A DNA stretch of 32,277 bases from a virus, in IMG/VR virus record IMGVR_UViG_3300042380_000300, positions 1 through 32,277 of that record, one strand, 5' to 3'. The notes under the pieces were generated by a model. The model was not told where the DNA came from and searched no databases. It saw only the letters and a program-made list of their open reading frames with translations. Of the stretch, positions 10,593 to 32,277 are shown one piece after another; positions within the stretch are counted from its first letter, which is position 1, and every line of letters starts with the position of its first letter. The position numbers were made by a program, and so were the translations under genes.

Positions 10593-10593
10593 A

Positions 10594-11234: not shown

Positions 11235-11897
11235 TTAGTATTTATTTTTCTCATAAAAACCTGTTACTTTCATAAATCCTACGGTAACATATCTTATGGG
11301 TCCTTCTCCTACAAACCTTACTCCATGCTCATATTCTTCGTTTCCTGGGAAAATAAGCAATGTTCCTGGTTTTGGCCTTAAGTCTGAATCTTCCTTATTC
11401 TTAAAGAACAAAGTTCCATCCTTATAGTCATCATTAATGTATAGTATAGCAGCATATCTAATGGATGGATCTGTGTGTTGGTCTGTATGAGCCTTTAACT
11501 CAACACCAGCCTGCATTCTTTGAAGTGTTCCAAATCCAGCAAGTTCTAAAGATGGGTCTGCTAGTTCTAGTAGTTTCCCCAGTCTACCTTGAAGAGTTGT
11601 GCTTATTTGTTTAGTTGTAATATTTAGATTCTTATCTTCCCAGCCTTGGGTAATTTCAAATTTACCTTCTGCGACCAGGTTATCTACATCATCTCTGCCA
11701 AACTTTTCCATACAGAATCTAGCAAGATTTTTTGTATACTCTATAGCCCAGTCTTCGTTAGGGGTGGTATCAATTATTTCTAAAATAGTTTCTAGTTCTT
11801 CTGGTTGCAAAAAATCTTTTACAAACAAAACATGATCATGAAAGACTTCAGTACTATAGCCAGCATCGTCAAACTCTTTTTTTAAAAATACTTCCAT
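11235..11897 (-). CDS. 2OG-Fe(II) oxygenase, prolyl-4-hydroxylase-like (sixth in operon)
   Basis: 220 residues. N-terminal helical part FVKDFLQPEELETILEII, then core: H137-T-D139 (KAHTDQHTD), YAAILYINDDYKDGTLFF, PKPGTLLIFPGN, distal H191 (YEHGV) and R202 (GPIRYVTV). All ligands are present, so it should be active. A segment EYTKNLARFCMEKFGRDDV around residue 55-72 is not seen in the other copies. The ATG directly follows the stop of the previous gene (TAA ATG), with GAGGAT as ribosome site. The substrate is unknown. Confidence 0.9.
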   Translation of the reverse strand: MEVFLKKEFDDAGYSTEVFHDHVLFVKDFLQPEELETILEIIDTTPNEDWAIEYTKNLARFCMEKFGRDDVDNLVAEGKFEITQGWEDKNLNITTKQISTTLQGRLGKLLELADPSLELAGFGTLQRMQAGVELKAHTDQHTDPSIRYAAILYINDDYKDGTLFFKNKEDSDLRPKPGTLLIFPGNEEYEHGVRFVGEGPIRYVTVGFMKVTGFYEKNKY

Positions 11898-12644
11898 TTA
11901 TAGATCCTCAACCTTATACTTGTTTCCGTCAGCATCAAGTTTCCATCCCTGCTTTAGCAACTCTTGCCATTCTGCTCTTTCAATTTCTTGCTTTGCTCTG
12001 GTCTCTTTCATTTCTGCAGCCCAGGCATCTCTTAGTTCTTGAGGGTAATCAGACTCTTCTCTATCATCCCAGAATGAGCCGATGGTATATCTAACCCCAC
12101 TGGTTATAAGAGTTACTTCGTGCATATTGTTAAATCCCCCGTCAAATGCAGCAAGCATTCCAACTTTAGGTTGAAGGCTTATCTCTTGATCTGGGAACTG
12201 CAACATGCCACCTTCGAAGTCATCGTTCAAATATAAAAATGCTGCATATCTACTTCTTGTAAAAGCACCAGAGTGGCCATGCTCGTCTGTGTTGTCAGAA
12301 TGCTTTCTTGCATAGGCTCCTGGTTCCCACTTCTGTGTGTGGTACCCAATTTGAGAAATTATTTTTGGATCAAGATCGTGAACACTTGCAACAGCATCAA
12401 TAATTCCTTGCTTAATTTGTGAGAATATATCGCTTGGCAGTTTCTCATTCTCTACATGCTCATCATTGTCTTGTGGCAATACTGAAGAATAAGACTCATA
12501 GAATGATATTGGCATCCATGTAATTAATCCAAGTTCTGCATGCTTATCTAAAACCTTTACAAGTTTAGCAGCAGTGTCTGCATCAATAAAGTTTTCATAA
12601 ACAACAATATCCTTTGTTATTCTTTTTTTGTTATCTAGGTTCAT
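11898..12644 (-). CDS. 2OG-Fe(II) oxygenase, prolyl-4-hydroxylase-like (fifth in operon)
   Basis: 248 residues. Core: H115-S-D117 (RKHSDNTDEHGH), YAAFLYLNDDFEGGMLQF, PKVGMLAAFDGG, distal H175 (NNMHEVTL) and R185 (SGVRYTIGSFW). The C-terminal ~50 residues form a charged helix (DAWAAEMKETRAKQEIERAE) ending in a short WKLDADGNKYKV segment, which could be a protein-binding extension. The start overlaps the previous stop as ATGA, so translation is coupled. It is clearly a different subtype from its neighbours, so not a recent tandem duplicate. Confidence 0.9.
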   Translation of the reverse strand: MNLDNKKRITKDIVVYENFIDADTAAKLVKVLDKHAELGLITWMPISFYESYSSVLPQDNDEHVENEKLPSDIFSQIKQGIIDAVASVHDLDPKIISQIGYHTQKWEPGAYARKHSDNTDEHGHSGAFTRSRYAAFLYLNDDFEGGMLQFPDQEISLQPKVGMLAAFDGGFNNMHEVTLITSGVRYTIGSFWDDREESDYPQELRDAWAAEMKETRAKQEIERAEWQELLKQGWKLDADGNKYKVEDL

Positions 12645-13513
12645 TTTATCCTTCTTTCTTTGTCAGCATTATTTCTGTTTGGATTGTCATCTCTAAACTT
12701 TTGCATAATATCTTGTTGCATTTCTTGCCACTTTTCTTTACCAAACTTTTCTTCATTTTCAAACCACTCTGGGGCACCGACAGAGTACTTTGTCCAGTAC
12801 ATTCTTGAAAGGTACTTCGAATTGTGATTTACAGGCATAACTCCATGAAGATAGATAGACTCTTCAGACATCAAAAATTCTGGATGTCCTGATGGGAAAA
12901 CAAGAAGATCTCCAGCCTCTGGCTTATACATATATGCCTCACCATTTGCTATAAAGTCAATTTCTCCACCCTCATAGTCATCGTTAAAGTATGTTAAAGC
13001 AGTAATTGCAAACTTATGTCCTGGGCTTACTATTGGCTCTCTTATATAGTCTGTGTGGTATGTCATTGCTAGTGGGTCTTCAATGTCTATCTTATATCTT
13101 GCTATAGATGGTCCTGTGTATTCCCACTCCTTAACATCGTTCCCTCTTTCATCTTTGATGTCTGGGATAAGTCTGTTTTCATCAAAATCAACATTGTTCT
13201 TTGCAATATAGTCTTTTGTTGCTATCATAAAATTATTAAGAATTTCTAAAAGAACTTGCTTGTGCTCTTCTTGTTTTTCTGTTGAGGTTGCTACTTTTTC
13301 AACATGATCTATTTTTAAATTATCATGATATGTTCTAAAAATTGGATTAATGTATTCGCCAAACCTTGACCATGGTGACCATGGACTAAATAGTCCATCT
13401 TCTTCTCCTTGTGACTCCTTCAAAAGACTATAGGTCTTATGAATGTCTTTAAAAAGACCTTTATATACAAAAATCTTTGGGTATACTTCAATTACATTGA
13501 GAGGCTCTGTCAT
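12641..13513 (-). CDS. 2OG-Fe(II) oxygenase, prolyl-4-hydroxylase-like (fourth in operon, longest)
   Basis: 290 residues from MTEPLNVIEV. Core: H153-T-D155 (TYHTDYIRE), FAITALTYFNDDYEGGEIDF, PEAGDLLVFPSG, distal H223 (YLHGVMPV), then NSKYLSRMYW, where K233 or R237 could bind 2-oxoglutarate. The N-terminal ~140 residues are longer than in the others, and a basic tail (EKWQEMQQDIMQKFRDD to the end) follows the core. The ATG at 13513 is chosen because it overlaps the upstream stop as ATGA. An ATG 12 codons earlier would overlap that gene by 40 bases. Confidence 0.9.
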   Translation of the reverse strand: MTEPLNVIEVYPKIFVYKGLFKDIHKTYSLLKESQGEEDGLFSPWSPWSRFGEYINPIFRTYHDNLKIDHVEKVATSTEKQEEHKQVLLEILNNFMIATKDYIAKNNVDFDENRLIPDIKDERGNDVKEWEYTGPSIARYKIDIEDPLAMTYHTDYIREPIVSPGHKFAITALTYFNDDYEGGEIDFIANGEAYMYKPEAGDLLVFPSGHPEFLMSEESIYLHGVMPVNHNSKYLSRMYWTKYSVGAPEWFENEEKFGKEKWQEMQQDIMQKFRDDNPNRNNADKERRIK

Positions 13514-14184
13514 GGCTTTCTGTCTCCTGTATGCTCTGTAATTTCCCAAAAGAATGGACAGGTGTATCTAATACCACTCTTAATTTCTGTTACTCCGTGA
13601 ATATAATTCATATCCCCTGGGAAAAAATAAGCAGCACCCTTCTTTGGCTTAAACTGAACACCCTGATTTGGAAAGTATAACTCTCCGCCTTCATAGTCTT
13701 CGTTTAAATAGAAAAGGCTTGAAAGGTCGTAATTTGGAAAATCATTTGGAAGTCCTGCATCTGGACCTTCATGCAGTTCTTTGTCTGCGTGAGGCTTCTG
13801 AAACTGCCCTGGAAGCCATCTAACGATAGTTGTTCCAGTAGGAGTAACCTTTACCTTATAAAACTCTTCGACGATTGGCTTTAGTCTTTCAAACAGTCCT
13901 GCAATTATTGGTGCAATTGATGGATCGTTTTTATCTAATGTAGGACTAGTTGCAACCCTATCTTTCCAGTAGTCTGAATCATAAACGACTGTTCCATTTT
14001 CATTTACATGGCTTTCAGTAACATCCCAAATCGTCAATGACTTTGCAGCCTTTTCTAAAAACTCTATTTCTTGTTCTGTCATAAAGTTTTCTAACTCAAC
14101 GATCATTTCTTTGCCATCACCGAACCAGCCAGAGGGTGTGATTGATGGCTTTCTTTGTACTACCTTATATTCGTCCATGTTCAT
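13510..14184 (-). CDS. 2OG-Fe(II) oxygenase, prolyl-4-hydroxylase-like (third in operon)
   Basis: 224 residues. N-terminal VELENFMTEQEIEFLEKAAK is the usual helical lead-in. Core: H132-A-D134 (KPHADKELHEG), SSLFYLNEDYEGGELYF, PKKGAAYFFPGD, distal H196 (YIHGVTE) and R206 (SGIRYTCPFFW). All catalytic residues are intact. The start overlaps the preceding stop as ATGA; a second ATG two codons later is possible. Of the seven copies in this operon it is among those with the most standard bacterial P4H arrangement (Arg as 2-oxoglutarate ligand). Confidence 0.92.
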   Translation of the reverse strand: MNMDEYKVVQRKPSITPSGWFGDGKEMIVELENFMTEQEIEFLEKAAKSLTIWDVTESHVNENGTVVYDSDYWKDRVATSPTLDKNDPSIAPIIAGLFERLKPIVEEFYKVKVTPTGTTIVRWLPGQFQKPHADKELHEGPDAGLPNDFPNYDLSSLFYLNEDYEGGELYFPNQGVQFKPKKGAAYFFPGDMNYIHGVTEIKSGIRYTCPFFWEITEHTGDRKP

Positions 14185-14897
14185 ATTGTATCACCATTCA
14201 TATTATTTTTAACTGAAAGTTTTAATGCTTTTACTTCATGAGAGCCTAGACTTTCTCCCTTTTCATTAACAGCATCTCTATACCAGTCTGTCCATTGTCC
14301 AGATTTATTAACTTCTTGTGCTGCTTCACCATAGGCCCTATTTGCATTTTCTTTTGATCTGTCTTCATCCTTATACTCAACAAGTTCTATGGTTGTGTTA
14401 TTTAGATTTGTTAGAGATATCGGAATAATAGTTGCTATTGGAGTTCCTGCTTTTATGACCACTCTTTGATTTGCTTTTCTTGCTTTAATTGCTAATGGAA
14501 GTGGATTAGGATAAAAAGATGTGCTAACTAAGTTAGACAAAGTTTCAAAGTCTTCGCTAAAATAATTTACTGGATTAATTGTCCAAATGCTAATGTTGGG
14601 ATCTGTTCTAAAAACCAAACTAGTGTTTAAACTTATGGAGGCCTGTCCTCTTCCAGCATAAGAGCCTGTCGGACTAAATATTGTTACATGTTGATCTGTT
14701 TGATCAGTTATTCCGTCCCACTCAAACTCAATATCTTCTGTGCAAGAAAGGTTCCATCCAATGACATTTGCCTGTGTTACTGGAAAACATCTATATGCAT
14801 GATTGTCTGAGGTTTCGTCCATCCAATCTCTTTTAATTGACATTGGACTAATCTCAAAGTTACTACCTTGCATTTTTTCTACTGAAATATTTAGCAT
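14181..14897 (-). CDS. DUF6065-like protein of unknown function (second of two)
   Basis: 238 residues from MLNISVEKMQ. It looks like the DUF6065 type: CFPVTQANVIGWNLSC, FEWDGITD, then WTINPVNYFSEDFETLSN, SFYPNPLPLAIKA and IKAGTPIATIIPISL, a probable all-beta fold. No function is known to me. The same order of segments appears in weaker form in the 15591-16358 protein, so the two are probably distant paralogues. The C-terminal ~65 residues are charged and helical. The ATG at 14897 overlaps the upstream stop (TAATG); an ATG five codons earlier is possible. It sits between oxygenases two and three, and shares their transcript. Confidence 0.75.
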   Translation of the reverse strand: MLNISVEKMQGSNFEISPMSIKRDWMDETSDNHAYRCFPVTQANVIGWNLSCTEDIEFEWDGITDQTDQHVTIFSPTGSYAGRGQASISLNTSLVFRTDPNISIWTINPVNYFSEDFETLSNLVSTSFYPNPLPLAIKARKANQRVVIKAGTPIATIIPISLTNLNNTTIELVEYKDEDRSKENANRAYGEAAQEVNKSGQWTDWYRDAVNEKGESLGSHEVKALKLSVKNNMNGDTI

Positions 14898-15580
14898 TAC
14901 TCTTGATCCCATTTTGAATCATACATGTCTGGTGTATGATACTTTTTGCTGTAATCTAGCATAGTAACGATTGAATACTTTGTACCAGAGTGTACTGGCA
15001 TTGCTTGATGAGGGTACATAAAGTTAGATGGGAATACATAAAGATCCCCAGCCTTTGGCTTAATATTTAAACCCTGCAATCTAAAGAATAGTTCTCCACC
15101 ATCATAATCATCATTTACATATGCGACCAAAGAAAGAGTGCAGTTGTAAGAATATCCATGATCGTGATGCTCTTTAAAGTGTTGGCCTGGGCCATACTTA
15201 ATAAAATTAAATGCCTCCCAATATTTAAGTGGCATGATGTTGTAGTCTCTTCTGTAATCTTCTACTGCTGCAAACTGTGCGTCATAGATGTCTTGCCATA
15301 ATGCTTGAAGATTTAGTGAGTCTTGGCTTTTATCTAATTCTATATCTGTTTTCTTAAACTTAAAGTCAACGCAGTCCCTATAGTCTGGCATAAGTTGTTG
15401 ATATCCTACGTATGCTGGCATCCAGTGGTATCTTTTTCCTTCTGCTGACAACTCTCCATATCCAGCAACTGATCCTAGATTGGCCTCAAGTCTGTTTATT
15501 ACATCAAACTCTTTTTTAATTACGCCTCTATAGCAAATAATTCCATTGCCAAGATCTTCTTTTTCTGTCCATGTCTGCAT
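14897..15580 (-). CDS. 2OG-Fe(II) oxygenase, prolyl-4-hydroxylase-like (second in operon)
   Basis: 227 residues from MQTWTEKEDL. Core: H138-H139-D140 (FKEHHDHGYSYNCT), LVAYVNDDYDGGELFF, PKAGDLYVFPSN, distal H191 (YPHQAMPV) and K201 (SGTKYSIV). The segments WEAFNFIKYGPGQHF and YNCTLS closely match the first oxygenase of the operon (16358-17071), so these two form a subgroup with Lys rather than Arg as 2-oxoglutarate ligand. The ATG at 15580 has an AAGGAG site overlapping the stop of the previous gene. An upstream ATG would overlap that gene and lacks a ribosome site. Confidence 0.92.
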   Translation of the reverse strand: MQTWTEKEDLGNGIICYRGVIKKEFDVINRLEANLGSVAGYGELSAEGKRYHWMPAYVGYQQLMPDYRDCVDFKFKKTDIELDKSQDSLNLQALWQDIYDAQFAAVEDYRRDYNIMPLKYWEAFNFIKYGPGQHFKEHHDHGYSYNCTLSLVAYVNDDYDGGELFFRLQGLNIKPKAGDLYVFPSNFMYPHQAMPVHSGTKYSIVTMLDYSKKYHTPDMYDSKWDQE

Positions 15581-15590
15581 TGTATTCTCC

Positions 15591-16358
15591 TTATTTATAT
15601 TCTCTGCGGGACCAAACTTTTTTAATGTACACTCCTCCATCAGGTTGCCGATAGAATTTTGCGTTATCTACCATTTTACCATATATCTCAGACTGTCCTA
15701 AAATCTCTATCTCGTGTTCCCAGTTTTCTCTTTTAAATGGAAGTACCTGCATGTATGGGGTTCCAGCAGGAAGCGTTCCTTCCCAGCCTTCTGCTATAAA
15801 AAATGGGAAACTTCCAAGAAGATGAACTTTGTCAGAGTCTACAACTCCAGTTGTGTTCATAAACGGAAGATCAAACCTATTCATTGGTGTCATAAATAAT
15901 GCGCTATATCCTTCTGGTAACTCTAGACCCCATGGTGAACTCCATGCAAAATGGTATTGGTAATACCCTTTAGGATGTTCGAACTGTGGCATTGGTGGTC
16001 TTTGTGTACAAAAGTCTTTATACTTGGGGTCATCAATTGTGACATTAATTATACCCTGAGAATTTTTAGCAAATGTTAGGTCACAAGGAGTTTTAAATAC
16101 ATATCCAGTTGCAAACGCATCCATAATTGCAGGACATGCTTTCCATGTAGGTATCTTCCCATAATCATCTGTTGTGCCTTCTTTAGGAAATGGACAAACC
16201 TCTTTTGGTGCTTTGTAGTATTCTCCGTTTGGCATTTTAGCAAATCTGTCTGCGTCTTTATACCAATCTGGCATTTCTTTTTGTGTTGGGACTGGTGTAG
16301 AAATGTTTTCTTTATCTAACCAGGGCCTGAAGGATCTAAACTTGGCGATTAAAGACAC
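15591..16358 (-). CDS. phage protein of unknown function, distant relative of the DUF6065-like neighbour
   Basis: 255 residues, GTG start overlapping the upstream stop (TAGTG). N-terminal TPVPTQKEMPDWYKDADRF, then TWKACPAIMDAFATGYVFKT, YYQYHFAWSSPWGLELPEGY, FMTPMNRFDLPF, LGSFPFFIAEGWEGTLPAGT and a C-terminal basic end. The pattern of TP-x-N-x-F, then S-F-x-F, then AGTP-x-x-x-x-x-P parallels the 14181-14897 protein. I recall similar proteins from cyanophages and other aquatic phages next to oxygenase genes, without known function. No catalytic residues can be assigned. It could bind a carbohydrate or be a non-catalytic partner of an oxygenase (inference). Confidence 0.72.
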   Translation of the reverse strand: MSLIAKFRSFRPWLDKENISTPVPTQKEMPDWYKDADRFAKMPNGEYYKAPKEVCPFPKEGTTDDYGKIPTWKACPAIMDAFATGYVFKTPCDLTFAKNSQGIINVTIDDPKYKDFCTQRPPMPQFEHPKGYYQYHFAWSSPWGLELPEGYSALFMTPMNRFDLPFMNTTGVVDSDKVHLLGSFPFFIAEGWEGTLPAGTPYMQVLPFKRENWEHEIEILGQSEIYGKMVDNAKFYRQPDGGVYIKKVWSRREYK

Positions 16359-17071
16359 TACTTGTGTCCTAGTTCATTAATGTCTGTCATTACGACAACA
16401 CAATACTTTGTTCCCTCTTTCATAGGCAATGAAGCATGTTCATAGATATAGTTTGATGGGCAGAGAACAATATCTCCTATTTTTGGAGCATGTGTGTAGT
16501 TGTCCATTCTTGGAAATCTAATTTCGCCACCCTCATAGTCTTCATTAATGTAGATAACAGCAGACACTGTACAGTTGTACATTGGGCCGTGGTCTGCGTG
16601 TATGTTAAAGTGAGTTCCTTGTCCTTCGTATTTTACAAAGTTAAATGCCTCATAATATACAACATTGATACCCCAATATCTAGCATAATCATCAACGCAC
16701 AACTTTAACTTTTGATAAATTTCTTCATGAAGATCAATAAGTTCAGAATTATGTTCATCTCTTGGCCCTAAGTTTTCTTGCTTAAATCTAAAGTCTACTG
16801 CATCTCTGGCCTTCTTAATTGGAACATCAGAATTAGTTACTTTTGCTTCTGACCATTTATATTTACCATTCCCGCCAAGATTTGACTCTAGAATCTTTAT
16901 GTATCTTTCAGAGTCTTCTTTTGAAAATACGTTTCTATATAGATTGATTCCTAATGCTGGGTTTTCAACTAAAACATTGTTTTCAATAGTTCTTGATGGA
17001 TATCTGTTTACTGCAGTTTCTGATCTATCCTTAGTAAACCAAGGGGTCTCATTTTCATCATAAGTTGTCAT
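16358..17071 (-). CDS. 2OG-Fe(II) oxygenase, prolyl-4-hydroxylase-like (first in operon)
   Basis: 237 residues. Core: H158-A-D160 (HFNIHADHGPMYNCT), SAVIYINEDYEGGEIRF, PKIGDIVLCPSN, distal H212 (YEHASLPM) and K222 (EGTKYCVVV). It shares YYEAFNFVKY and MYNCT with the second oxygenase. It is the leading gene of the eleven-gene operon ending at 9334. Every following gene overlaps or nearly abuts the one before. The leader of about 30 bases carries AAAGGAATAGGG as ribosome site, and the promoter lies in a 22-bp inverted repeat. Confidence 0.92.
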   Translation of the reverse strand: MTTYDENETPWFTKDRSETAVNRYPSRTIENNVLVENPALGINLYRNVFSKEDSERYIKILESNLGGNGKYKWSEAKVTNSDVPIKKARDAVDFRFKQENLGPRDEHNSELIDLHEEIYQKLKLCVDDYARYWGINVVYYEAFNFVKYEGQGTHFNIHADHGPMYNCTVSAVIYINEDYEGGEIRFPRMDNYTHAPKIGDIVLCPSNYIYEHASLPMKEGTKYCVVVMTDINELGHK

Positions 17072-17573: not shown

Positions 17574-17594
17574 AGTTTAGATCTCCTTTAGTAT

Positions 17595-17603: not shown

Positions 17604-17609
17604 TATTTA

Positions 17610-18548
17610 TTAGCATCCACAACTACCGCAGCAACCAGGACATGCTTGCCAGCAATAACTTCTGATACATCCTGAACAACCACTGCTAGAGAAGGTTGGT
17701 GGGAAGAACGGTGGGAAGAACGGGAAGAATGGGAAGAACGGTGGGAAGAATGGGAAGAACGGGAAGAATGGGAAGAATGGTGGGAAGAATGGGAAGAATG
17801 GTGGGAAGAACGGTGGGAAGAACGGGAAGAATGGTGGGAAGAATGGTGGGAAGAACGGGAAGAACGGTGGGAAGAATGGGGGGAAGAATGGGAAGAACGG
17901 AAAGAATGGTGGGAAAAATGGAGGGAAGAATGGGAAGAATGGGAAGAACGGAGCAATAGTAGTTACGTTATTAGATGCTGGTGACACTGCAGAGTTACCA
18001 TTAGCGTTTGTTGCATAAACTGTATATGTCTGTGCTGTATTTGCTTCTTGGGTAGGTGATGCCGAAGTTCCTGCTGTTGTGGCTCCCTTTCCATCTGATG
18101 ATGCCCAGGTATAACTAGTTATCGCAGATCCACCATTTGCTGGTGCTGTCCAAGTAACTGTATCCTGATCTACTCCTGCTGTAGCAACTGGTGCTGAAGG
18201 AGTTGCTGGTACTGTTGTAATAGTTATTGCAGCAGATGCAGCAGATGCAGCAGAAGTTCCTGCAGCGTTAGTCGCTGTTACTGTAAATGTTGGTGTTGCT
18301 GACGAAGCAATTCCAGTTACAGTTAATGGAGATGATGCTCCAGTTGCTGTCTGTCCTGTGCTTGCTGTTACTGTAAAAGATGTGGCAGCAGGAGAAAGTG
18401 CTGGTAAAGAAAAAGAAACAGTGGCTGCACCATTATTAAATGCTCTTCCTGTTCCTACATTTGCTGCTGAAACACCTGTTGGTGCTAAAGGCTCCAAAAA
18501 GTCATTTGACGCTTGGGACTTTTTACCTATCTTCTTACCTGCTGCCAT
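17610..18548 (-). CDS. virion protein: two FN3 domains, Pro-Phe-Phe repeat, eight-cysteine C-terminal tail
   Basis: 312 residues in four parts. Residues 1-19 are basic. Two fibronectin type III-like domains lie at about 20-112 and 113-198 (PSAPVATAGVDQDTVTWTAP and TYTVYATNANGNSAVSPASN are typical strands). Residues 199-285 are almost only Pro and Phe in units FFP and FFPP. The tail at 288-312 has eight Cys (GCSGCIRSYC, then CPGCCGSCGC). FN3 domains are common in surface-exposed phage structural proteins. I know no precedent for such a Pro/Phe tract; it would be very hydrophobic and may be buried, packed with partners, or act as an adhesive or membrane-active end. The same Cys tail ends the 28346-30505 fibre. 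AGGAGA precedes the ATG. The reading frame through the repeat is supported by the shared tail after it. Confidence 0.82.
   Translation of the reverse strand: MAAGKKIGKKSQASNDFLEPLAPTGVSAANVGTGRAFNNGAATVSFSLPALSPAATSFTVTASTGQTATGASSPLTVTGIASSATPTFTVTATNAAGTSAASAASAAITITTVPATPSAPVATAGVDQDTVTWTAPANGGSAITSYTWASSDGKGATTAGTSASPTQEANTAQTYTVYATNANGNSAVSPASNNVTTIAPFFPFFPFFPPFFPPFFPFFPFFPPFFPPFFPFFPPFFPPFFPFFPPFFPPFFPFFPPFFPFFPFFPFFPPFFPFFPFFPPFFPPTFSSSGCSGCIRSYCWQACPGCCGSCGC
17694..17954 (-). repeat. tandem repeat coding for (P)FFP units
   Basis: About 260 bp made of 9-base and 12-base units (minus strand TTCTTCCCR and TTCTTCCCACCR). The plus strand is almost all purine, with single T or C interruptions. 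The mixed unit lengths keep frame, so slippage would change the number of Phe-Phe blocks without frameshift. Confidence 0.9.
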
Positions 18549-24074: not shown

Positions 24075-24103
24075 TTGTTTTTTGAAAAATCTCATGCTAT
24101 ACT
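24075..24103 (+). promoter_or_regulatory. promoter of the lysozyme gene (-35 TTGTTT, 17-bp spacer, TGC-TATACT)
   Basis: -35 TTGTTT at 24075-24080, -10 TATACT at 24098-24103 with TGC before it; spacing is ideal. Start expected near 24110. It is the only plus-strand promoter supported in the window. Confidence 0.7.
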
Positions 24104-24104
24104 T

Positions 24105-24129
24105 GGTAGTAACACCTACCAGGGTGTTA
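24105..24129 (+). promoter_or_regulatory. overlapping inverted repeats at the lysozyme transcript start
   Basis: GGTAG (24105-24109) pairs with CTACC (24116-24120), while TAACACC (24110-24116) pairs with GGTGTTA (24123-24129). The two hairpins share bases and exclude each other. They could be an operator or an RNA switch just before the ribosome site (AAGGAGG, 24139-24145). Confidence 0.45.
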
Positions 24130-24150
24130 TTGTTTTCTAAGGAGGAAACT

Positions 24151-24725: not shown

Positions 24726-24757
24726 AATACCCCCTTGGAGAAATCCTTGGGGGTATT
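24726..24757. terminator. bidirectional intrinsic terminator
   Basis: Arms AATACCCCC and GGGGGTATT around a TTGGA-GAAA-TCCTT inner part. T-rich on both sides (TTTTATTAT on the plus strand, TTCTTTTTATAT on the minus strand). It ends the plus-strand lysozyme gene and the converging minus-strand enzyme operon. Confidence 0.85.
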
Positions 24758-24760: not shown

Positions 24761-25552
24761 TTATCTAAAACTAATCTCTGACTTAACGCCATCTGAGAAA
24801 GTGTAAGAAGGAAACCATCCAAGAAGGTCTCTGTTATCTATTTCTGGTAGAACCGTTAGGTCTGGCAAATGCAAAACGGTATAATTAATAATAACACCAT
24901 TAGCCTTGTACTCATTTACCACATCAATCATAGTAAACTGGTTTCCAGTAAAAATATCTGTAAGCAAAAAGTCATTATCTTTAAGGTACTCAATAGATAA
25001 GACATTGGCTTTTGCTATATCTAAAACATGAACATAGTCTCTTGTTGAAGAGATGCTGTTTATTCTTATGTTTGGATCTTTGTTAATTATTGAAAATATG
25101 TTTCCACTTTGATCGTCTTTTGTTTTACTAGATTTTCCAACAATGTTAAAATATCTTAATATAACAAGTTTTTTGCATAAAGACTTTAAGATCTTCTCTT
25201 CTAAAAGTTTTGACTTGGCGTATGGATTATAAGGATTATAGACTGCTGCTGAGGAAGCAAATACAACTGGGATATCAAAAAATCTAGAGGTCATTCCGAT
25301 AATAAATGTTGAAAAAAGATTATTCATATAATATGAAAGTGGATATTTTATAGAATCTTGAATAGACTTTTTAGCAGATAGATGAATTATGTAAGATAGA
25401 GTATTTGGCTTAATGTGCTTAAATATTAGCCTTGTGTCTTTATTAATTTTTCTATCTATTTCAACTACTTTATATCCGTAATCTTCCAACAACTCTTTTG
25501 TTGCAGTTCCTACATACCCACGAGACCCAGTTACTAATACTTTAGAACTCAT
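24761..25552 (-). CDS. NAD-dependent sugar-nucleotide epimerase/dehydratase (short)
   Basis: 263 residues. Rossmann start VLVTGSRGYVG (GxxGYxG at 9-15), an IHLSAKKS segment, the Ser in FASSAAVYNP (about 100) and the Tyr-Lys pair YAKSK (Y111, K115). This is the extended-SDR family of UDP-glucose 4-epimerase and its relatives, acting on nucleotide sugars. It is shorter than typical members (about 310-340) because the C-terminal substrate domain is reduced, so the exact reaction cannot be told. The ATG overlaps the transferase gene by 11 bases. As last gene of the operon it may supply or convert the donor sugar for the GT60-like transferase. Confidence 0.85.
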   Translation of the reverse strand: MSSKVLVTGSRGYVGTATKELLEDYGYKVVEIDRKINKDTRLIFKHIKPNTLSYIIHLSAKKSIQDSIKYPLSYYMNNLFSTFIIGMTSRFFDIPVVFASSAAVYNPYNPYAKSKLLEEKILKSLCKKLVILRYFNIVGKSSKTKDDQSGNIFSIINKDPNIRINSISSTRDYVHVLDIAKANVLSIEYLKDNDFLLTDIFTGNQFTMIDVVNEYKANGVIINYTVLHLPDLTVLPEIDNRDLLGWFPSYTFSDGVKSEISFR

Positions 25553-26456
25553 AATAATTGTCTAAAATTTCTCCGTTAACAAAGTCAAGTCCACAAAACT
25601 TTCCGTATTCAGATAAAGTTCTTTCTGTTCCAAGTCTTCCTTCTCCGACTATTCCTTCTCCACTTAATACAAACCTAATTTCGTCAACAGATATTTTATT
25701 TAGTTCTGCTGTTTGTTCTGGCCAGTCTGGGTATACAGTCCTTCTTGCGTTTTTACCCTCTGTGCCGTAATAAAGATGATACATAAACATCTCGCTTGGA
25801 ACAAAGAAGTCATATCCGCTAGTATATGCTCTTGCTGCCATAAATATTTCTTCACCGTCAGCAAATATTAGTTTGTTTGGCTTTATGAATTCTCCTTCTG
25901 TAAAAATAGACCCTCCAGATACAGAGATGGAAAATATGTTTCCTTCTGGATTTAAAACAGTGCCCTGCATTGGCATTCTGTTGTGTTTAAATCTTTCTTT
26001 ATCTTTCCAATAAAATTGAGTAACGACCTCTTTATGTTGATTTACTTTTTCTGTATCGCCTTCGTACCAGAATGGCTTTGGGTACTGACTAATTAAGGGC
26101 TTTTTAAATCCATTACCTTTGTGAGTATCTATTTCGTTTATTAAGAATGTGTCCCAGTTCTGATCAAACCTGCTATGAGCATCTATTTGAAAGTAGTAGT
26201 CTTCTCCATTATACAAATCATGAGCGATGGCTCGACCAAGCCCCATTCCAAGATTTTCTGGGGCTTTGCTTTCAATTAACTTAACATTAGCAATATTTCT
26301 TACTGGCTCAATCCAAGAATTGTCTTCATAAAAAATTGAATGCACACCAAAAACTAGTTCTGTTTCTCCTGATGACTTATCTATAGCATTTCTTATAGTC
26401 TTCTCAAGTTCATAGTCATGATAAGATGTTATTTGAATAAAGATGCTTTTTTTCAT
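25542..26456 (-). CDS. GT60-like GlcNAc-type glycosyltransferase
   Basis: 304 residues from MKKSIFIQITSYHDYELEKT. That opening, the GMGLGRAIAHDLYNGEDYYF segment and QIDAHSRFDQNWD (D92-x-H94, probable metal/UDP site) are the signature of the PF11397/GT60 family. Its best known member, Dictyostelium Gnt1, adds alpha-GlcNAc to hydroxyproline of Skp1. Later segments (SGGSIFTEGEF, ADGEEIFMAARAYTSGYDFF) fit the family's catalytic end. The ATG at 26456 is chosen because it overlaps the upstream stop (TAATG); an ATG 12 codons earlier is less likely. Its neighbour two genes upstream is a prolyl-hydroxylase-like oxygenase. That pairing is what makes hydroxyproline glycosylation a concrete possibility. 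Confidence 0.87.
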   Translation of the reverse strand: MKKSIFIQITSYHDYELEKTIRNAIDKSSGETELVFGVHSIFYEDNSWIEPVRNIANVKLIESKAPENLGMGLGRAIAHDLYNGEDYYFQIDAHSRFDQNWDTFLINEIDTHKGNGFKKPLISQYPKPFWYEGDTEKVNQHKEVVTQFYWKDKERFKHNRMPMQGTVLNPEGNIFSISVSGGSIFTEGEFIKPNKLIFADGEEIFMAARAYTSGYDFFVPSEMFMYHLYYGTEGKNARRTVYPDWPEQTAELNKISVDEIRFVLSGEGIVGEGRLGTERTLSEYGKFCGLDFVNGEILDNYYEF

Positions 26457-27391
26457 TATTCTTTCCATATAGCATGAATACAAGTTGTACAAAAGTTCTC
26501 ATATGAATGCTTGATCATGTCCTTTCTTTCTTGACTTTCCCAAATTTCCTTTATTGGAGTATCATTTACATTTCCAAATACCGTTTCAAAATCATAGTCA
26601 TTACAGCAAAGAAACACAGCGCCGTTAGCGTTTATGTGAATCCAGGTGTCTGGTCTGCTGCCCATATTGTTACAACCAACAACACTTCCTTTGCCAGTTA
26701 TCTGGTTTTTCATTATTCCACGGGTATCTAGATATCCTGCTCTATCAACCAAAGAAGTATTTGCATATATGCTTATTTCTGGAAAAGATTCTTTCATTTG
26801 TTTTACAGCAGTAGCCGTATCTCCAGTATTATCATTTAAGTCTATTGCAGGAGCATTTTCTAACAACTCCATGTAGCCAAGAGAAGTTTCATTTATTCCG
26901 TTTACCTGCATTGAAACTCTTTGATGTGGAAAGTTATCTATTGCGTATCTAATATTATCCATAACTCTTTGATGCATTTTTTCAGGTTTGCCCGTCATTT
27001 TTGCCCAAGTGGTAGCGTCGGCAGACGGGGTATTAAAATGAATTATATCAACAACATCGCTGTATTCTTTGATAATATCCATTTTGTCTTTTGTTAGTGG
27101 AGAGCCATTGGTAAGAACCATTGTTCTAAGTCCATGCTCTCTAAATAAGTCAAGCATTTCTCTAAAGTGTTTATAAAGAAGAACTTCATTATAGTGTGCT
27201 GTATAAATAAAAGAAAATGATGGATCTACAAAATCTCCAACACCATTTTTTAATTGCTCAATAACAGATCTAATTGTCTCAATAGGCATGGTGCCTCGCC
27301 CAATGACTGGGTTTTCTTCATATGCTACTGGACAAAACCAACATCCAAGATTGCATAGACCATTAGGGTCTAACTGAACTAATTTTATCAT
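26456..27391 (-). CDS. radical SAM enzyme with SPASM-like C-terminus
   Basis: 311 residues. The iron-sulfur motif is C13-NLG-C17-WF-C20 (CNLGCWFC), followed by a (beta/alpha) barrel (TMVLTNGSPL, VDIIHFNTPSADATTW). The C-terminal ~60 residues hold several Cys (VGCNNMGSR, FLCCNDYDF, FCTTCIHAIW), as in SPASM domains that bind extra clusters. SPASM enzymes often modify peptides, and related ones act on sugars or aminoglycosides. The substrate here is unknown. The start overlaps the oxygenase stop as ATGA. Candidate targets in context are the sugar made by this operon or the Cys-rich ends of the fibres. Confidence 0.9.
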   Translation of the reverse strand: MIKLVQLDPNGLCNLGCWFCPVAYEENPVIGRGTMPIETIRSVIEQLKNGVGDFVDPSFSFIYTAHYNEVLLYKHFREMLDLFREHGLRTMVLTNGSPLTKDKMDIIKEYSDVVDIIHFNTPSADATTWAKMTGKPEKMHQRVMDNIRYAIDNFPHQRVSMQVNGINETSLGYMELLENAPAIDLNDNTGDTATAVKQMKESFPEISIYANTSLVDRAGYLDTRGIMKNQITGKGSVVGCNNMGSRPDTWIHINANGAVFLCCNDYDFETVFGNVNDTPIKEIWESQERKDMIKHSYENFCTTCIHAIWKE

Positions 27392-28059
27392 CTAAGCCAA
27401 CTAACCACTGCATATCTTTCTCCTTCAGTAACAGGAGATACTGAATGATTGTAAACATAGGTAGAAGGAAATATAACCATCTGATTTGCTTTAGGCTTAA
27501 AAGAAAGATTAAATCTTGGAAAATTTAATTCTCCTCCAGAATAGTTATCGTTAAGATAATATAGGGTTGATACTCTTCTATGGTAGTCTGGATGATCATC
27601 TATATGATTTGTAAATTTTTGACCTACTCCATACTTTAATATTTGATAAGAGTCATGCCATGAACAACCTATGCCGTAATTATTTTGATAATTAATTTCT
27701 AAAGGAACTAAATTTTCTAAAAAAAGATTAGCCATAGAAGTGTAAAATGCTGCTCCAATATCTGAGTAATCGTCTTTTTCTATTTCTGAATACGGAATGT
27801 TAATAGTTTGTGTGTCTCTTGACTTTGTGTCTACGTTTGACTCTACAGAATCTCCAACTCCAGTTTTTACCTGGGCTGCAAGCCATTCTATTCTCGCTGA
27901 TTGCATTCCTTCTTCAAGATCAACAACAACAGTTTTAAAAGTTTCTTCGGGTATTACATTTTCATAACACATTATTCCAGGAGCAATCTCAGTTCTTTCT
28001 ATTGCTCTATACTTGTTAAAAATTATTCCTTTATCATTTTCCCAAAATATTTTTTCCAT
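27388..28059 (-). CDS. 2OG-Fe(II) oxygenase, prolyl-4-hydroxylase-like (eighth in window)
   Basis: 223 residues. Core: H152-I-D154 (FTNHIDDHPDYH), VSTLYYLNDNYSGGELNF, PKANQMVIFPST, distal H205 (YNHSVSPV) and R215 (GERYAVVSW). All ligands are intact. It resembles the operon-A enzymes in layout (ICYENVI lead-in, then the jelly-roll core) but lies in a separate operon 10 kb upstream, next to the GT60-like transferase and downstream of the Pro-Thr-rich fibre. The ribosome site AGGGAAATGG overlaps the end of the preceding gene. Confidence 0.92.
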   Translation of the reverse strand: MEKIFWENDKGIIFNKYRAIERTEIAPGIMCYENVIPEETFKTVVVDLEEGMQSARIEWLAAQVKTGVGDSVESNVDTKSRDTQTINIPYSEIEKDDYSDIGAAFYTSMANLFLENLVPLEINYQNNYGIGCSWHDSYQILKYGVGQKFTNHIDDHPDYHRRVSTLYYLNDNYSGGELNFPRFNLSFKPKANQMVIFPSTYVYNHSVSPVTEGERYAVVSWLR

Positions 28060-28060
28060 A

Positions 28061-28300
28061 TTACCATTTCCCTAATGGACATACTGCCCCTTGTAGTTTT
28101 GTTTTTGCTACCATAAAACATCCGCATTTTTTACATTGTTTTGTTAATTTAATTAGTTCTGGACATGCTTTACATATAGAGTATCTTTCTTCTGCTACCT
28201 CGGCAGGTGCCCATTCTGTTGAAGGGTTTACAATATCCCAAGGCCTGGTTTCTCCTAAATTTTGTTTATATCTTTGCCAAGGAGTTAGTTCTTCTGACAT
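28061..28300 (-). CDS. small Cys-rich, probably zinc-binding phage protein
   Basis: 79 residues. N-terminal TPWQRYKQNLGETRPWD, then CKACPE, CKKCGCFM, KTKLQGAVCPLGKW. The six Cys (two CxxC-like pairs plus two) suggest a metal site. Similar small proteins occur in T4-like cyanophages and other aquatic phages, with no firm function. It is the first gene of a five-gene operon. Its AAGGAG site and TATAAT box lie just upstream, and the next gene starts one base after its stop. Confidence 0.75.
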   Translation of the reverse strand: MSEELTPWQRYKQNLGETRPWDIVNPSTEWAPAEVAEERYSICKACPELIKLTKQCKKCGCFMVAKTKLQGAVCPLGKW

Positions 28301-28330
28301 TTATGTCTCCTTCTATAGTTGTTTTATTCA

Positions 28331-28336
28331 ATTATA
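28331..28336 (-). promoter_or_regulatory. -10 box TATAAT of the glycosylation-type operon
   Basis: TATAAT preceded by GTG (TG shifted one base from the extended -10 position). The leader is about 25-30 bases and carries AGAAGGAGA before the ATG at 28300. It lies between the fibre stop (28346) and the operon. Read-through from the fibre is also possible, since no terminator is seen between them. Confidence 0.5.
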
Positions 28337-28345
28337 CACTATAGA

Positions 28346-30505
28346 CTAGCATCCGCAATCGCCATTACAGCATGATGGGCAAGGCTCATAGCAATAATTT
28401 CTAATACATCCAGTGCATGCTGATGTTGGTGTTGGTGTAGGTGCTGGTGTTGGAGCAGTCGTTGGAGCAGGTGTAGGTGCTGGGGTTGGAGCAGGTGTAG
28501 GTGCTGGGGTTGGAGCAGGTGTAGGTGCTGGGGTTGGAGCAGGTGTAGGTGCTGGGGTTGGAGCAGGTGTAGGTGCTGGGGTTGGAGCAGGTGTATTGCT
28601 TGGACAGAAATCTCCTACACAAATATATTCTCCGTATGCTGCACAGAAGAATTGTGCACATGGAGTAGGTGTTGGAGTAGGTGTTGGTGTTGGTGTTGGA
28701 GTTGGAGTTGGAGTTGGAGTTGGAGTTGGAGTTGGAGTAGGAGTTGGAGTAGGAGTTGGTGTCGGTGTTGGTGTCGGAGTTGGTGCTGGTGTGCCATTCC
28801 ATGGAGTTGCAGAACACTCTCCAAATGTTGTGCTGTAATAATATCCACAAGCCTGGCATTGTGATTGGTTAAGAATTGAAGGATCTGTACACAAACTGTT
28901 TGTAGGTGTTGGTGTAGGTGCTGGGGTTGTTGTTGAAGTCGGAGTTGGAGTTGGTGTTGGAGTTGGTGTTGGTGTTGGTGTTCCTGTACTAACACATTCA
29001 CCAAGTGATGCATTCCATACTAATCCACATTCAGCACATTGTGACTGAGGGATTAAACTCCAGTCTGGATTACAAGGAGAGGCCGTTGGCGTTGGAGTAG
29101 GTGTTGGTGAAGGCGTTGGCGCAGGTGTTGGTGTGCCACTGCATGGGAATGCAGGGAATGCTGGATATGATGTTCCTGCTGGTCCATAAACACATATTGT
29201 TGCAGCAACGCTATTGCAACTAGTATTATTGGTGTCGCTTGTGTAATTAGCAGTAGTTCCATCATTTTCTCTTGTAGAGCAATACCATTGACTTGTTGCA
29301 GAAGTTGGTGTTGGTGTTGGTGTTGGTGTTACACAGTTTGGAATAGTTGGTGGTGCAGGGTATGAAACTGTAGAACATGCAACAGCAGAAACGCCACAAA
29401 CAGATCCAGTTATATTGCTATCCCATTCAAACTGTCCTCCTGCCTCTTCAGTATAATTTGATGTGCAGTACCAGACTGTTGGTCCTGGTGTTGGAGTAGG
29501 TGTTGGTGTTCCTGAACTTGGTGTTGGACTTGGAGTTGGAACAATTATTGCAGTTGGTGTTGGAGTAGGTGTTGGTGTTCCTGAACTTGGTGTTGGTGTA
29601 GGAGTAGGAGTTCCTGAAGTTGGTGTTGGTGTAGGAGTAGGAGTTCCTGAAGTTGGTGTTGGTGTAGGAGTAGGAGTTCCTGAAGTTGGTGTTGGTGTTG
29701 GTGTAGATGTAGGTGCAGGAGTTGGTGCTGGAGTAGGTGCTGGGGTTGGAGCAGGTGTAGGTGCTGGTGTAGGTGCTACTGCAACGCCTTCATAAACATC
29801 TCCATACAAAACCCAACTATCTGTTGCAATCTTTACAAGAGTTCCTTTACTGTAAGTTCCATCTAAAAATAGTTGTGAGTTCTTACTTCCAACAGTTACT
29901 CCAGATGCTGGAACAAAAGTTGTTCTTGCTGAACCAATTTCAACTAAATTATATTTATATCCAATTGGTATATTAACAGCAGAATTTAGCGGGATAGACA
30001 AGTTTGTTGGGGATGACATTTGTAAAAAAATTGTTTTATTAACATCGAGGGGATCTAAAGTAAAAGCAGATGTCTTTACTACTACAGTATTATTATTTAG
30101 TAGAGATGGATCAAGATCAAATCTTTCATCGATACCGTTCCATTCAAGGCCATCTCCTGCAAGGTTTGGATATTCTGCTGTAGCACCTTCTAGAGCATTA
30201 ATTACATATGCCTGTGATGCTAGATTTGCAGTATTTGCTATACCGTGGACATCTGTTGTCTTGTTTTGATGAGCAACACGTGCTGCTGTTTCAGCAGCGA
30301 TTGCATCTGTAAGAGTTTTAAGGTAGTTTGCAATTGAGGGGATTGGGAGAGGGCCTGGGGTTTGTGCTGCTGCATCATAAGTGTCTGATCCATAGTGATA
30401 AAGTCTTAATGCTGCTTGGATATCGGCAGGATCTCCGAGTCCTGGCATTTTGGTGTTAAAAGGCCCAGTACCCGTAGGGGTTTTGTCAATATTTTCTGCT
30501 GCCAC
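28346..30505 (-). CDS. mucin-like fibre: head domains, Pro-Thr linkers, Cys modules, eight-cysteine tail
   Basis: 719 residues. Residues 1-100 include a [10 protein letters not shown] piece related to the 534-residue fibre; 138-238 is a beta domain shared with that fibre's C-terminus ([23 protein letters not shown]). From 244 on, Pro/Thr/Ala linkers alternate with Cys modules: type A at 343-391 and 405-455 (WYCTSN and WYCSTR starts), type B at 478-506 and 537-570 ([24 protein letters not shown]), type C at 616-637. The tail at 695-719 ([10 protein letters not shown] to DCGC) has eight Cys and matches the end of the FN3/Phe protein. Start is GTG at 30505 with AGAGGTGA six bases before it. Likely a host-contact fibre. 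Linkers of this type are classic O-glycosylation or hydroxyproline targets (inference). Confidence 0.85.
28461..28595 (-). repeat. five exact 24-bp repeats coding for APTP units
   Basis: Plus-strand unit GTTGGAGCAGGTGTAGGTGC + TGGG repeats five times without a mismatch (28461-28580), plus a partial sixth. Perfect identity implies recent expansion or homogenisation. Confidence 0.92.
28661..28792 (-). repeat. six-base repeats coding for (TP)n
   Basis: Plus-strand GGAGTT/GGTGTT/GGAGTA hexamers code for an uninterrupted Thr-Pro run of about 40 residues. Slippage here changes linker length in frame. Confidence 0.85.
29480..29776 (-). repeat. first Pro-Thr linker, with 33-bp tandem repeats
   Basis: Within it, a 33-bp unit (plus strand ends GGAGTTCCTGAA) occurs three times in tandem at 29586-29684, the first with one change; it codes for an 11-residue TPTPTPTSG-type unit. 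Confidence 0.85.
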
Positions 30506-31591: not shown

Positions 31592-31600
31592 ATTATACCA
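31592..31600 (-). promoter_or_regulatory. extended -10 promoter TGG-TATAAT, leaderless for the 31585 gene
   Basis: TATAAT at 31597-31592 with TGG upstream and a six-base gap AAAACC to the ATG. The stop codon TAA of the preceding gene (31595-31593) is part of the hexamer. Confidence 0.65.
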
Positions 31601-32277
31601 CGCTGACGTATACAGAATTGAGAATTACGGAGGCATCAAAGTCTGTTCTAATTTGAGGTACTGCTCCGTTGCCCCACATAGCCTTGTCTTCGATAAATAT
31701 ATTTTGAGTAACTGAAAGGTTGTAGACGTTCTGATACTTAAGTGATCCTACAAACTGAACAAACTCCTGATCCTTACTTGCAAAGTATGTCCTTAGCCAA
31801 ACCTCAGTATTAGCCGTATAGGTAGTTAGTTCAAAATTGTATGTTACGAATATTTGTGAGCCTTCTTTGATACCGTGAAAGTTAAGGGCTCTTTGATGGC
31901 TGTTCCAAAGGCTAGTGCAATCTTTTGGAAGGTATTTTTCGTTTTGGTTTTTATCCTTGGTGTCAAGGAGAAGTGTTACCCAGCCATCGTCTCCCTGAGA
32001 GATTCCAAGTTTGATTGGTTTGTCAATAGTATTTGTATACGAAGCCCATCCTGCTTGCTGTCCTGAAGAGGATACAGAACTTGCTCCATCTTTACCTGCT
32101 GGACCTTTATCACCCTTTGGACCTGGCTTTCCTTCTGGTCCTTCAGGTCCTTCTTTTCCATCTCTACCGTCTCTACCTGCGGGTCCCTGTGGTCCTACTG
32201 GGCCAGGGACGGGAAGAAATGAAAGAGCATTATCTACAGTAGGAGATGCTTGACTTTGTTCTACTTGTGCAGCATAA
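31593..32277 (-). CDS. collagen-like virion protein (5' end outside window)
   Basis: The last ~227 residues are visible; the start is beyond the right edge. After YAAQVEQSQASPTVDNALSF comes a run of 14 Gly-X-Y triplets (about 32204-32079; GPVGPQGPAGRDGRDGKEGP and on to GKDG), followed by a beta-rich C-terminal domain (GWASYTNTIDKPIKLGISQG, VTLLLDTKD, YNFELTTYTANTEVWLRTYF). Collagen-like stems joined to a beta head are usual for phage side fibres. Prolines in these triplets are in X and Y positions and could be hydroxylated by the encoded oxygenases (inference). The stop codon is part of the next gene's promoter. Confidence 0.85.
   Translation of the reverse strand, partial: YAAQVEQSQASPTVDNALSFLPVPGPVGPQGPAGRDGRDGKEGPEGPEGKPGPKGDKGPAGKDGASSVSSSGQQAGWASYTNTIDKPIKLGISQGDDGWVTLLLDTKDKNQNEKYLPKDCTSLWNSHQRALNFHGIKEGSQIFVTYNFELTTYTANTEVWLRTYFASKDQEFVQFVGSLKYQNVYNLSVTQNIFIEDKAMWGNGAVPQIRTDFDASVILNSVYVSVV
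32079..32204 (-). repeat. collagen-like Gly-X-Y repeat
   Basis: Fourteen consecutive G-X-Y triplets with mixed Pro and charged residues, as in bacterial and phage collagen-like stalks. Confidence 0.9.

Follow-up and report, generated by a model that had tools for sequence, protein, structure and literature searches.

A candidate fibre maturation cassette beside a Thr-Pro-rich fibre in a virus of bacteria, and its relation to other fibre stalks

The 32,277-base virus record IMGVR_UViG_3300042380_000300 (the window, analysed at its full length) comes from a virus of bacteria and codes for a fibre protein, fibre 1, whose stalk is chiefly (TP)n with (APTP)n blocks. Five close-packed minus-strand genes follow it, the last ending at 24761; they code for a small cysteine protein, a 2-oxoglutarate (2OG)-Fe(II) oxygenase, a radical S-adenosylmethionine (rSAM)/SPASM enzyme, a glycosyltransferase of family GT60 and a GalE-like epimerase (Table 1). 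These genes probably form a fibre maturation cassette, by which prolines of the stalk would be hydroxylated and threonines glycosylated. The assignment of the enzymes to the adjacent Pro-rich fibre, made by comparison of gene neighbourhoods, is well supported. An initial annotation had described a fibre followed by a five-gene operon, and all of the genes it named are present on the minus strand where it placed them; its enzyme identities agree with the Pfam matches, and the closest structures to the oxygenase are prolyl 4-hydroxylases (P4Hs).

In the proposed scheme, the phage would build a fibre with a low-complexity stalk formed by a dense Thr-Pro array. The oxygenase would hydroxylate prolines of this array and GT60 would add an N-acetylhexosamine (HexNAc)-type sugar, mainly to its threonines, while the epimerase may supply or tune the nucleotide sugar. 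The rSAM enzyme may make a further change to the sugar or the peptide. The resulting stalk would be stiff and hydrophilic, comparable to mucins or extensins, and would carry Cys-rich tips. The five genes are likely to be one operon, since they overlap or abut; their junctions, read from the sequence, are a 1-nt gap, an ATGA overlap, a TAATG overlap and an 11-nt overlap. Residues 139–237 of fibre 1 match the minor tail protein phrog_8780 (E 1.3e-10), and in an identical copy of the fibre (locus L001, below) runs of P-x dipeptides make up 220 residues, the longest run being 44.

The cassette recurs in other viral contigs. A search with GT60 gave 66 loci (L001–L066), and in L001–L014 the oxygenase, rSAM and GT60 genes occur together, joined by the epimerase in 13 of the 14 (L013 is without it). 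Each of these 14 cassettes lies behind a (TP)n protein, and the pairing of stalk and cassette is therefore not chance. The loci represent about ten distinct phages, as L001–L004 are identical and L005 is 96% identical in GT60, and the N-terminal parts of their (TP)n proteins differ widely. Identity to the window in aligned rows is 83–96% for the rSAM enzyme, 78–94% for GT60 and 53–66% for the oxygenase. An additional gene of ~190 aa lies between oxygenase and rSAM in L010, L012 and L014; in L012 a HAD and nucleotidyltransferase fusion (3346–4707) also lies between the TP fibre and its oxygenase, a position that fits a part in sugar activation or sugar-nucleotide supply. The rSAM gene is found beside GT60 in all 14 TP cassettes, in L015–L017 of a group with (PPPIIAT)n stalks and in L022/L023, and not in L018 or L019. 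One more locus, L237, which a TP repeat scan picked up and the GT60 search did not, has oxygenase, rSAM and GT60 behind its (TP)n protein. The small DUF6171-like Cys protein (CKKCGCFM..KTKL..CP.GKW) sits between fibre and enzymes in many such cassettes, including those with GT60 only.

The oxygenase of the cassette is a plausible prolyl hydroxylase. Its nearest solved relatives are the prolyl 4-hydroxylases 3itq and 5hv0 (E 4e-9), followed by PKHD-type hydroxylases from E 4e-4 and EGLN1 at E 0.012. The iron triad H152, D154 and H205 is invariant in an alignment of 19 rows, and the HxD...H...R/K pattern is kept in all eight oxygenases of the window (the R/K judged by eye in eight rows). In a tree of oxygenases the TP-cassette enzymes form a clade of their own with support 100/99, joined with one oxygenase from a PPPIIAT locus. 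The Tet_JBP match scored 16.6 bits against a cut-off of 34.9 (E 0.005) and does not place the enzyme in the TET/JBP type; DNA modification of this type was rejected on the weakness of that match.

In the rSAM enzyme the three cysteines of CX3CX2C are invariant (13 aligned rows). Its closest solved relatives are BtrN (E 2e-7), an aminocyclitol dehydrogenase, and, weakly, an anaerobic sulfatase maturase (E 0.002), so that oxidation of the sugar and oxidation of the Thr side chain are both possible. Among the best 25 rows of a comparison with NCBIfam, none reaches its own cut-off, which leaves the enzyme outside the known maturase subfamilies for ribosomally synthesised and post-translationally modified peptides; it could conceivably be a new kind of peptide-modifying SPASM enzyme. 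Its structure model is poor (predicted local distance difference test score, pLDDT, 63; shallow alignment).

The transferase gene probably starts at the ATG at 26456 (304 aa) and not at the TTG at 26492. The initial annotation had looked to a structure prediction to relate the enzyme to Gnt1, the GT60 transferase of Dictyostelium Skp1. The AlphaFold model of the 304-aa protein is confident (pLDDT 93.6), and its best match is to the Ser/Thr-acting polypeptide N-acetylgalactosamine (GalNAc)-transferases (ppGalNAc-T; Z 22.2, root-mean-square deviation 3.3, 264 residues aligned), the next other enzyme having Z 16.8. In this model, then, the fold is nearest to that of the mucin-type polypeptide GalNAc-transferases, which modify Ser/Thr. 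D92 and H94 of the D-x-H motif, presumably metal-binding as in ppGalNAc-T, are invariant in 32/32 rows. The model aligns to residues 134–439 of GalNAc-T2, the catalytic domain, without the C-terminal lectin domain, whose absence is described as a GT60 trait (PMC8724618). The epimerase matches the galE model at E 1e-26, yet far under that model's cut-off; with a GalE-like epimerase in the operon, N-acetylglucosamine (GlcNAc) cannot be assumed as the donor sugar.

The window carries a second fibre, fibre 2, which together with seven oxygenases (10594–17071) was absent from the earlier finding. Fibre 2 has a (PFFPFFPP)n stalk and is followed by the seven 2OG oxygenases (A–G), a DUF6065 protein, a protein without assigned family, a very weakly methyltransferase-like protein and a short-chain dehydrogenase (window 9334–18548). 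It may follow the same principle in another code, with a Pro/Phe stalk and seven oxygenases, GT60 not being among the enzymes. We know of no counterpart to this suite.

A scan for DNA coding PFFPFFPPFFP was chosen to avoid selection by enzyme. The repeat scans described here (PFF, TP and poly-Thr) are samples, their counts hold among the matches listed, and their loci are mostly fragments. The PFF set comprises at least 120 loci, of which 117 have a repeat open reading frame (ORF); 3 kb of flank is present downstream in 80 and upstream in 51. One comparison took in 80 of the loci (L069–L148), and the counts by 3-kb flank take in the whole set. In 75/80 loci (63/68 clusters) a same-strand oxygenase follows within 6 kb, and in 2/51 one lies upstream; as background, 51/849 large ORFs in L189–L428 have an oxygenase in the same downstream span. 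Among loci with 5 kb of room (n = 55), between four and seven oxygenases were counted within 6 kb in 50, and none in 3. Nearly all of the oxygenases within 8 kb of PFF stalks (316/318) best match one of the window's seven, some at low identity. The gene orders seen most often are ABCEFG (12 loci), ABCDEFG (10) and ABCDE (6), with a few loci rearranged. The stalks consist of 52.6% Phe, 42.9% Pro and 0.8% Ser+Thr, so the enzymes, if they act on the stalk, would have Pro or Phe as their chief target. In most locus surveys oxygenases were called by a home-made hidden Markov model seeded from the window, 500/504 of whose hits hold HxD/E; Pfam's own PF13640 model was used for counts in whole records. 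These records, both PFF and poly-Thr, were hand-picked and are mostly long contigs, the poly-Thr ones being one per cluster. In the 13 whole PFF records (12 picked from the PFF scan and 1 from the GT60 set; a fourteenth searched record, that of L021, has neither), PF13640 has 92 matches, of which 79 fall in the 10 kb after a PFF stalk, a span that makes up 15.6% of one-strand bases.

By a simple pattern, 10 of the 117 PFF repeat ORFs (L085, L091, L104, L128, L138, L155, L157, L159, L170 and L178) end not in a Cys tip but in a Hint/intein-like sequence (...NILTHNK, ...ISHNK). The one C-terminus tested, that of L091, matches Pfam Hint_2 at E 0.003, under the cut-off. Self-processing of these fibres is possible.

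The acceptor of GT60 may be approached through the stalks beside which it lies. Among L001–L066, 33 GT60 clusters have 3 kb upstream, 26 of them in L001–L045, and within these 26 a stalk lies within 6 kb upstream in 23 and downstream in 0/26. By set patterns, the stalks are poly-Thr in 10, TP in 9, PPPIIAT in 2, PYYAP in 1 and PFF with poly-Thr in 1; of the three clusters with none, two have an oxygenase and one is without. All ten poly-Thr-only clusters are without an oxygenase within 8 kb, whereas all 13 clusters with Pro-rich stalks have one. GT60 is thus not always paired with a prolyl hydroxylase, 10 of the 23 stalk-bearing clusters having no oxygenase within 8 kb. In the whole records of the poly-Thr clusters, 8/10 have no PF13640 match at all, although records may be fragments and a host enzyme is possible; one of the other two has a single match and the other has nine, of which six above cut-off lie within 5 kb together, far from GT60. 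The record of L029 (G018, 74237–79571) belongs to a GT60/poly-Thr phage with an oxygenase cluster tens of kb away, perhaps a PFF suite. The separation of poly-Thr clusters without oxygenase from Pro-rich clusters with one makes Thr a likelier acceptor than hydroxyproline (Hyp); it suggests that GT60 serves Thr and that oxygenases serve Pro-rich repeats. Hyp is a possible second acceptor in the TP stalk.

The initial annotation had instead taken Skp1 as its guide, proposing that the phage makes Hyp on its own fibres and glycosylates it. The first half has gained ground, the enzymes being tied to the fibre and the oxygenase being a plausible prolyl hydroxylase, while transfer by GT60 to Hyp is not favoured. 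A Skp1-like sequence, in which the oxygenase makes 4-hydroxyproline and GT60 adds GlcNAc onto that residue, would account for the presence of both enzymes in all 14 TP cassettes and all 13 Pro-rich GT60 clusters, and Skp1 Gnt1 is itself given as a GT60 member (PMC6939170). It is nonetheless unlikely. GT60 occurs without oxygenase at poly-Thr stalks, as counted above; conversely, oxygenase-rich PFF stalks have GT60 downstream in 1/80 loci, and PF11397, sought in the 13 whole PFF records, has no match anywhere in 10 of them. Two TP stalks from the repeat scan (L195 and L224) have GT60 without an oxygenase within 6 kb, and the fold is closest to enzymes of mucin type.

Comparisons of fibres with shared ends bear on the preferred reading, proline hydroxylation with glycosylation mainly of threonine. 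The anchor xSPLxRxPSGIG is found with a TP stalk in L008, L009 and L014, where it is accompanied by the TP oxygenase, rSAM, GT60 and epimerase, and with a PPPIIAT stalk in L015 (copy L017) and L018, where a different set of three oxygenases accompanies GT60. The PPPIIAT cassette of L015 also codes for a JmjC-like protein (6524–7099; PF08007 E 3e-9) beside its three PF13640-type oxygenases. The two fibres of the window have a common tip type and differ in stalk and enzyme set. From these anchor swaps, and from the common tip with different stalks and enzymes, the enzymes appear to follow the stalk. A broader proposal, for which the chances are about even, is a modular stalk code in phages, made of interchangeable units that each consist of one low-complexity stalk and the enzymes dedicated to it, as a phage counterpart of mucins and extensins. 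In such a code one prolyl hydroxylase, rSAM, GT60 and epimerase would serve (TP)n stalks, and GT60 together with three oxygenases and a JmjC-like hydroxylase would serve (PPPIIAT)n. Poly-Thr would need only GT60, and (PFFPFFPP)n would have four to seven oxygenases in mostly fixed order, which would hydroxylate Pro, and perhaps Phe, at several positions. Its probability is lowered because random TP stalks often carry one of oxygenase and GT60 without the other.

Several observations weigh against the maturation reading. The TP scan gave at least 120 loci, 107 with a repeat ORF, 51 with 3 kb downstream and 52 with 3 kb upstream (L237, with 2.65 kb downstream only, was excluded from the count). 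Generic (TP)n proteins are mostly without the cassette: an oxygenase lies downstream in 9/51 and upstream in 0/52, and GT60 downstream in 4/51 and upstream in 1/52. Both enzymes occur in only 2 loci (L218 and L247), phages already in the GT60 set, while 7 loci have an oxygenase without GT60 and two, L195 and L224, have the reverse. The idea that TP repeats alone imply a cassette was rejected on these counts, and the nine loci with one enzyme mean that the neat split of Pro-rich from poly-Thr stalks by oxygenase is not general. The oxygenase–GT60 pair that the initial annotation proposed to look for beside Pro-rich fibres is present in every Pro-rich GT60 cluster and apart in most of the 11 enzyme-bearing random TP loci. 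Among TP stalks with Cys-rich modules, GT60 lies downstream in 4/14. The poly-Thr scan (at least 120 loci, 107 with a repeat ORF, 44 with 3 kb downstream, 50 with 3 kb upstream) was predicted to find GT60 and found it downstream in 0/44; an oxygenase was likewise downstream in 0/44. By repeat-first scan, PFF stalks show a strong association with enzymes and TP stalks a real but partial one, and for poly-Thr stalks none was seen.

Further points of this kind come from GT60 itself. Among its distant relatives (L046–L066), 7/7 clusters with room are without a stalk by the set patterns, and the label for stalk and oxygenase changes just 2–3 times on the GT60 tree, so that the 10 and 13 clusters are not independent. 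L109 and L291, which have a similar SPLxR anchor, carry mixed TP + PFF stalks with GT60 and do not fit a simple swap; L109 also has one oxygenase weakly resembling the TP type. In a collection of 50,697 phage records the rSAM enzyme has 0 matches, GT60 has three distant matches, all in large phages, and the TP cassette is found in no phage isolate. Lastly, Hyp was reportedly not detected by amino-acid analysis of PBCV-1 virions despite the P4H of that virus (analysis cited in the review PMC7019647).

The fibre region could alternatively be an insertion hot spot for auxiliary or moron genes, whose enzymes would act on host metabolites, surface glycans or DNA. A cyanophage paper classes 2OG oxygenases as auxiliary metabolic genes (PMC10436341), an epimerase and an rSAM enzyme can be small-molecule enzymes (as the match of the latter to BtrN recalls), and random TP stalks are mostly without these enzymes. 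This explanation is somewhat less probable than the Skp1-like one: oxygenase sets track stalk type and not anchor or tip, PFF oxygenases mostly hold the order ABC(D)EFG and lie downstream, hardly ever upstream, of their stalks, and the match to Tet/JBP is weak.

It is very unlikely that the oxygenase acts on collagen-like tail proteins instead of the TP stalk. A collagen-like (GXY) protein does lie upstream in the window and in L001 and L003–L007, the literature connects viral collagen with P4H (PMC9301287), and cyanophage ACG-2014f has a collagen-like gene, a glycosyltransferase and an oxygenase close together. The loci L008, L009, L013 and L014, however, have a TP stalk and cassette with no GXY protein in the 0.4–5.5 kb upstream, and the oxygenases of PFF suites follow stalks of 95% Pro+Phe. 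The window's own collagen-like protein (31593–32276) is not favoured as the main substrate, given the cassette loci without a GXY protein. Marginally weaker still is the idea that the rSAM enzyme and oxygenases act on the Cys-rich modules, through cross-links of the kind that SPASM enzymes often form in peptides: fibres of both kinds have Cys-rich tips and an oxygenase lies downstream of 7/14 TP stalks with Cys-rich modules vs 2/37 without, but the window's fibres share a tip type and have different enzyme sets, among 43 PFF loci that have room but lack a Cys-rich module 39 still have oxygenases, and rSAM is found at 1 of 37 Cys-rich PFF loci.

Table 1. Features of the window that bear on the fibres and their predicted enzymes
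Feature	Coordinates	Strand	Evidence and remarks
Fibre 1	28346..30505	-	719 aa; tail-protein-like N-terminal region, (TP)n/(APTP)n stalks between Cys-rich modules, Cys-rich C-terminal tip
Small Cys protein, DUF6171-like	28061..28300	-	79 aa; Pfam DUF6171 E 1e-5, 26.3 bits, just below cut-off 27
2OG-Fe(II) oxygenase, prolyl-4-hydroxylase-like, TP-cassette type	27388..28059	-	PF13640 E 4e-20
Radical SAM/SPASM enzyme	26456..27391	-	PF04055 E 6e-13 and PF13186 E 9e-13, each above cut-off; CX3CX2C motif
GT60-family polypeptide glycosyltransferase	25542..26456	-	PF11397 E 3e-35, 122.7 bits vs cut-off 21
GalE-like nucleotide-sugar epimerase	24761..25552	-	263 aa; PF01370 E 3e-23
Terminator-like hairpin	24732..24753	+	Between epimerase gene and convergent lysozyme-like gene; weak
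Lysozyme-like gene	24082-24714	opposite to operon	SLT_3 E 7e-16
Collagen-like (GXY) tail protein	31593..32276	-	Upstream of fibre 1; PF01391 E 3e-7
Fibre 2	17610..18548	-	(PFFPFFPP)n stalk; Cys tip GCSGCIRSYCWQACPGCCGSCGC of same type as fibre 1 tip
2OG oxygenase A	16358..17071	-	PF13640 E 4e-10
PFF-operon protein without assigned family	15591..16358	-	255 aa; no Pfam family up to E 1
2OG oxygenase B	14897..15640	-	PF13640 E 3e-15
DUF6065 protein	14181..14912	-	PF19541 E 7e-32
2OG oxygenase C	13510..14184	-	PF13640 E 1e-9
2OG oxygenase D	12641..13549	-	PF13640 E 1e-8
2OG oxygenase E	11898..12644	-	PF13640 E 5e-9
2OG oxygenase F	11235..11897	-	PF13640 E 3e-10
2OG oxygenase G	10594..11223	-	PF13640 E 3e-11
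Possible FkbM-type methyltransferase, very weak	9999..10631	-	PF05050 E 0.12, under cut-off
Short-chain dehydrogenase, end of PFF operon	9334..10014	-	PF00106 E 1e-42

The surroundings of the two operons give some further indications. Terminator-like sites in the region number 8, against 4.4 expected from shuffles, so that the hairpin behind the epimerase gene is a weak call. Proteins of Streptomyces phages annotated as capsid maturation proteases share ~55% identity with the protein of 63–1400 along 57% of the latter, and 127 of the 139 records matching this protein are Streptomyces phages; this likeness suggests, and no more, an actinobacterial host. The protein of 3453–7175 was without a match in homology search. 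A scan of genomes with the rSAM enzyme gave one weak partial match, in a Zixiibacteriota metagenome-assembled genome (30% over residues 13–119), and so a cellular source or host was not found by it. In the PFF operon, the protein of 15591–16358 has tblastn relatives in 49 phage records; going by their names, 48 of these are haloarchaeal viruses (tailed viruses). Its relative in HCTV-7 (L430, 7144–7977) lies three genes past a putative adhesin, on the other strand, and reaches DUF6065 just over the cut-off.

Aquatic phages often carry 2OG-Fe oxygenases whose presence is unexplained, and a survey states that viral use of prolyl 4-hydroxylase 'remains cryptic' (PMC9301287). The association described here offers a testable answer, namely that at least some phage oxygenases act in the maturation of repetitive fibre stalks, each type of repeat having its own set. 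If this is true, dense hydroxylation and mucin-type glycosylation would join phage structural biology, with a bearing on adsorption to hosts, and the cassettes would provide a compact toolkit for modified repeat proteins.

The initial annotation knew of no described phage system of this kind, and among the papers listed by searches of the open-licence literature of PubMed Central none describes stalk-matched cassettes of hydroxylase and glycosyltransferase in phages. According to a 2012 paper on prophage collagens of E. coli, collagen prolyl hydroxylases are absent from bacteria and viruses (PMC3368898). Viral P4H and phage virion glycosylation are each already known. In the Synechococcus phage ACG-2014f_Syn7803C8 (L429, 5862–11338) a collagen-repeat gene is followed by two hypothetical genes, a glycosyltransferase (PF00534), a 2OG oxygenase (PF13640) and a tail fibre, a run of genes that is possibly a parallel in a named phage.

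Among the nearest known systems is the Skp1 pathway of Dictyostelium and Toxoplasma (the prolyl hydroxylase PhyA and the GT60 enzyme Gnt1), which likewise joins a prolyl-hydroxylase-like oxygenase to GT60, probably on one protein target. In Skp1 a single Hyp of a cytosolic regulator is glycosylated, whereas the phage target would be a structural fibre with long Thr-Pro arrays; the phage system also adds an rSAM enzyme and an epimerase, and its GT60 occurs at poly-Thr fibres without a nearby oxygenase as well. GT60 has been placed under mucin-type O-glycosylation, as initiators in protists (PMC8724618). The protist polypeptide alpha-GlcNAc-transferases (T. cruzi, Dictyostelium) resemble the phage case in the link of GT60 with Thr/Pro-rich stalks and in the ppGalNAc-T-like fold predicted for the phage enzyme; the phage case differs in being that of a phage enzyme, with no secretory pathway and a hydroxylase alongside. 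In mycobacteriophages glycans are likewise carried by virion proteins, at the C-termini of capsid and tail tube subunits, and hydroxylases are not mentioned in the passage that cites this work (Freeman et al. 2023, cited in PMC12619734). PBCV-1, an algal virus, likewise codes for a P4H with peptide substrates (Eriksson 1999). These peptides are reportedly repeats of viral proteins, and we know of no oxygenase sets in PBCV-1 that are matched to stalk type. Plant extensins and arabinogalactan proteins have repetitive TP, AP and PPP stalks which are hydroxylated and glycosylated in the plant secretory pathway by other transferases; the phage stalks are alike in their repeats and differ in the route and the transferases by which they would be modified.

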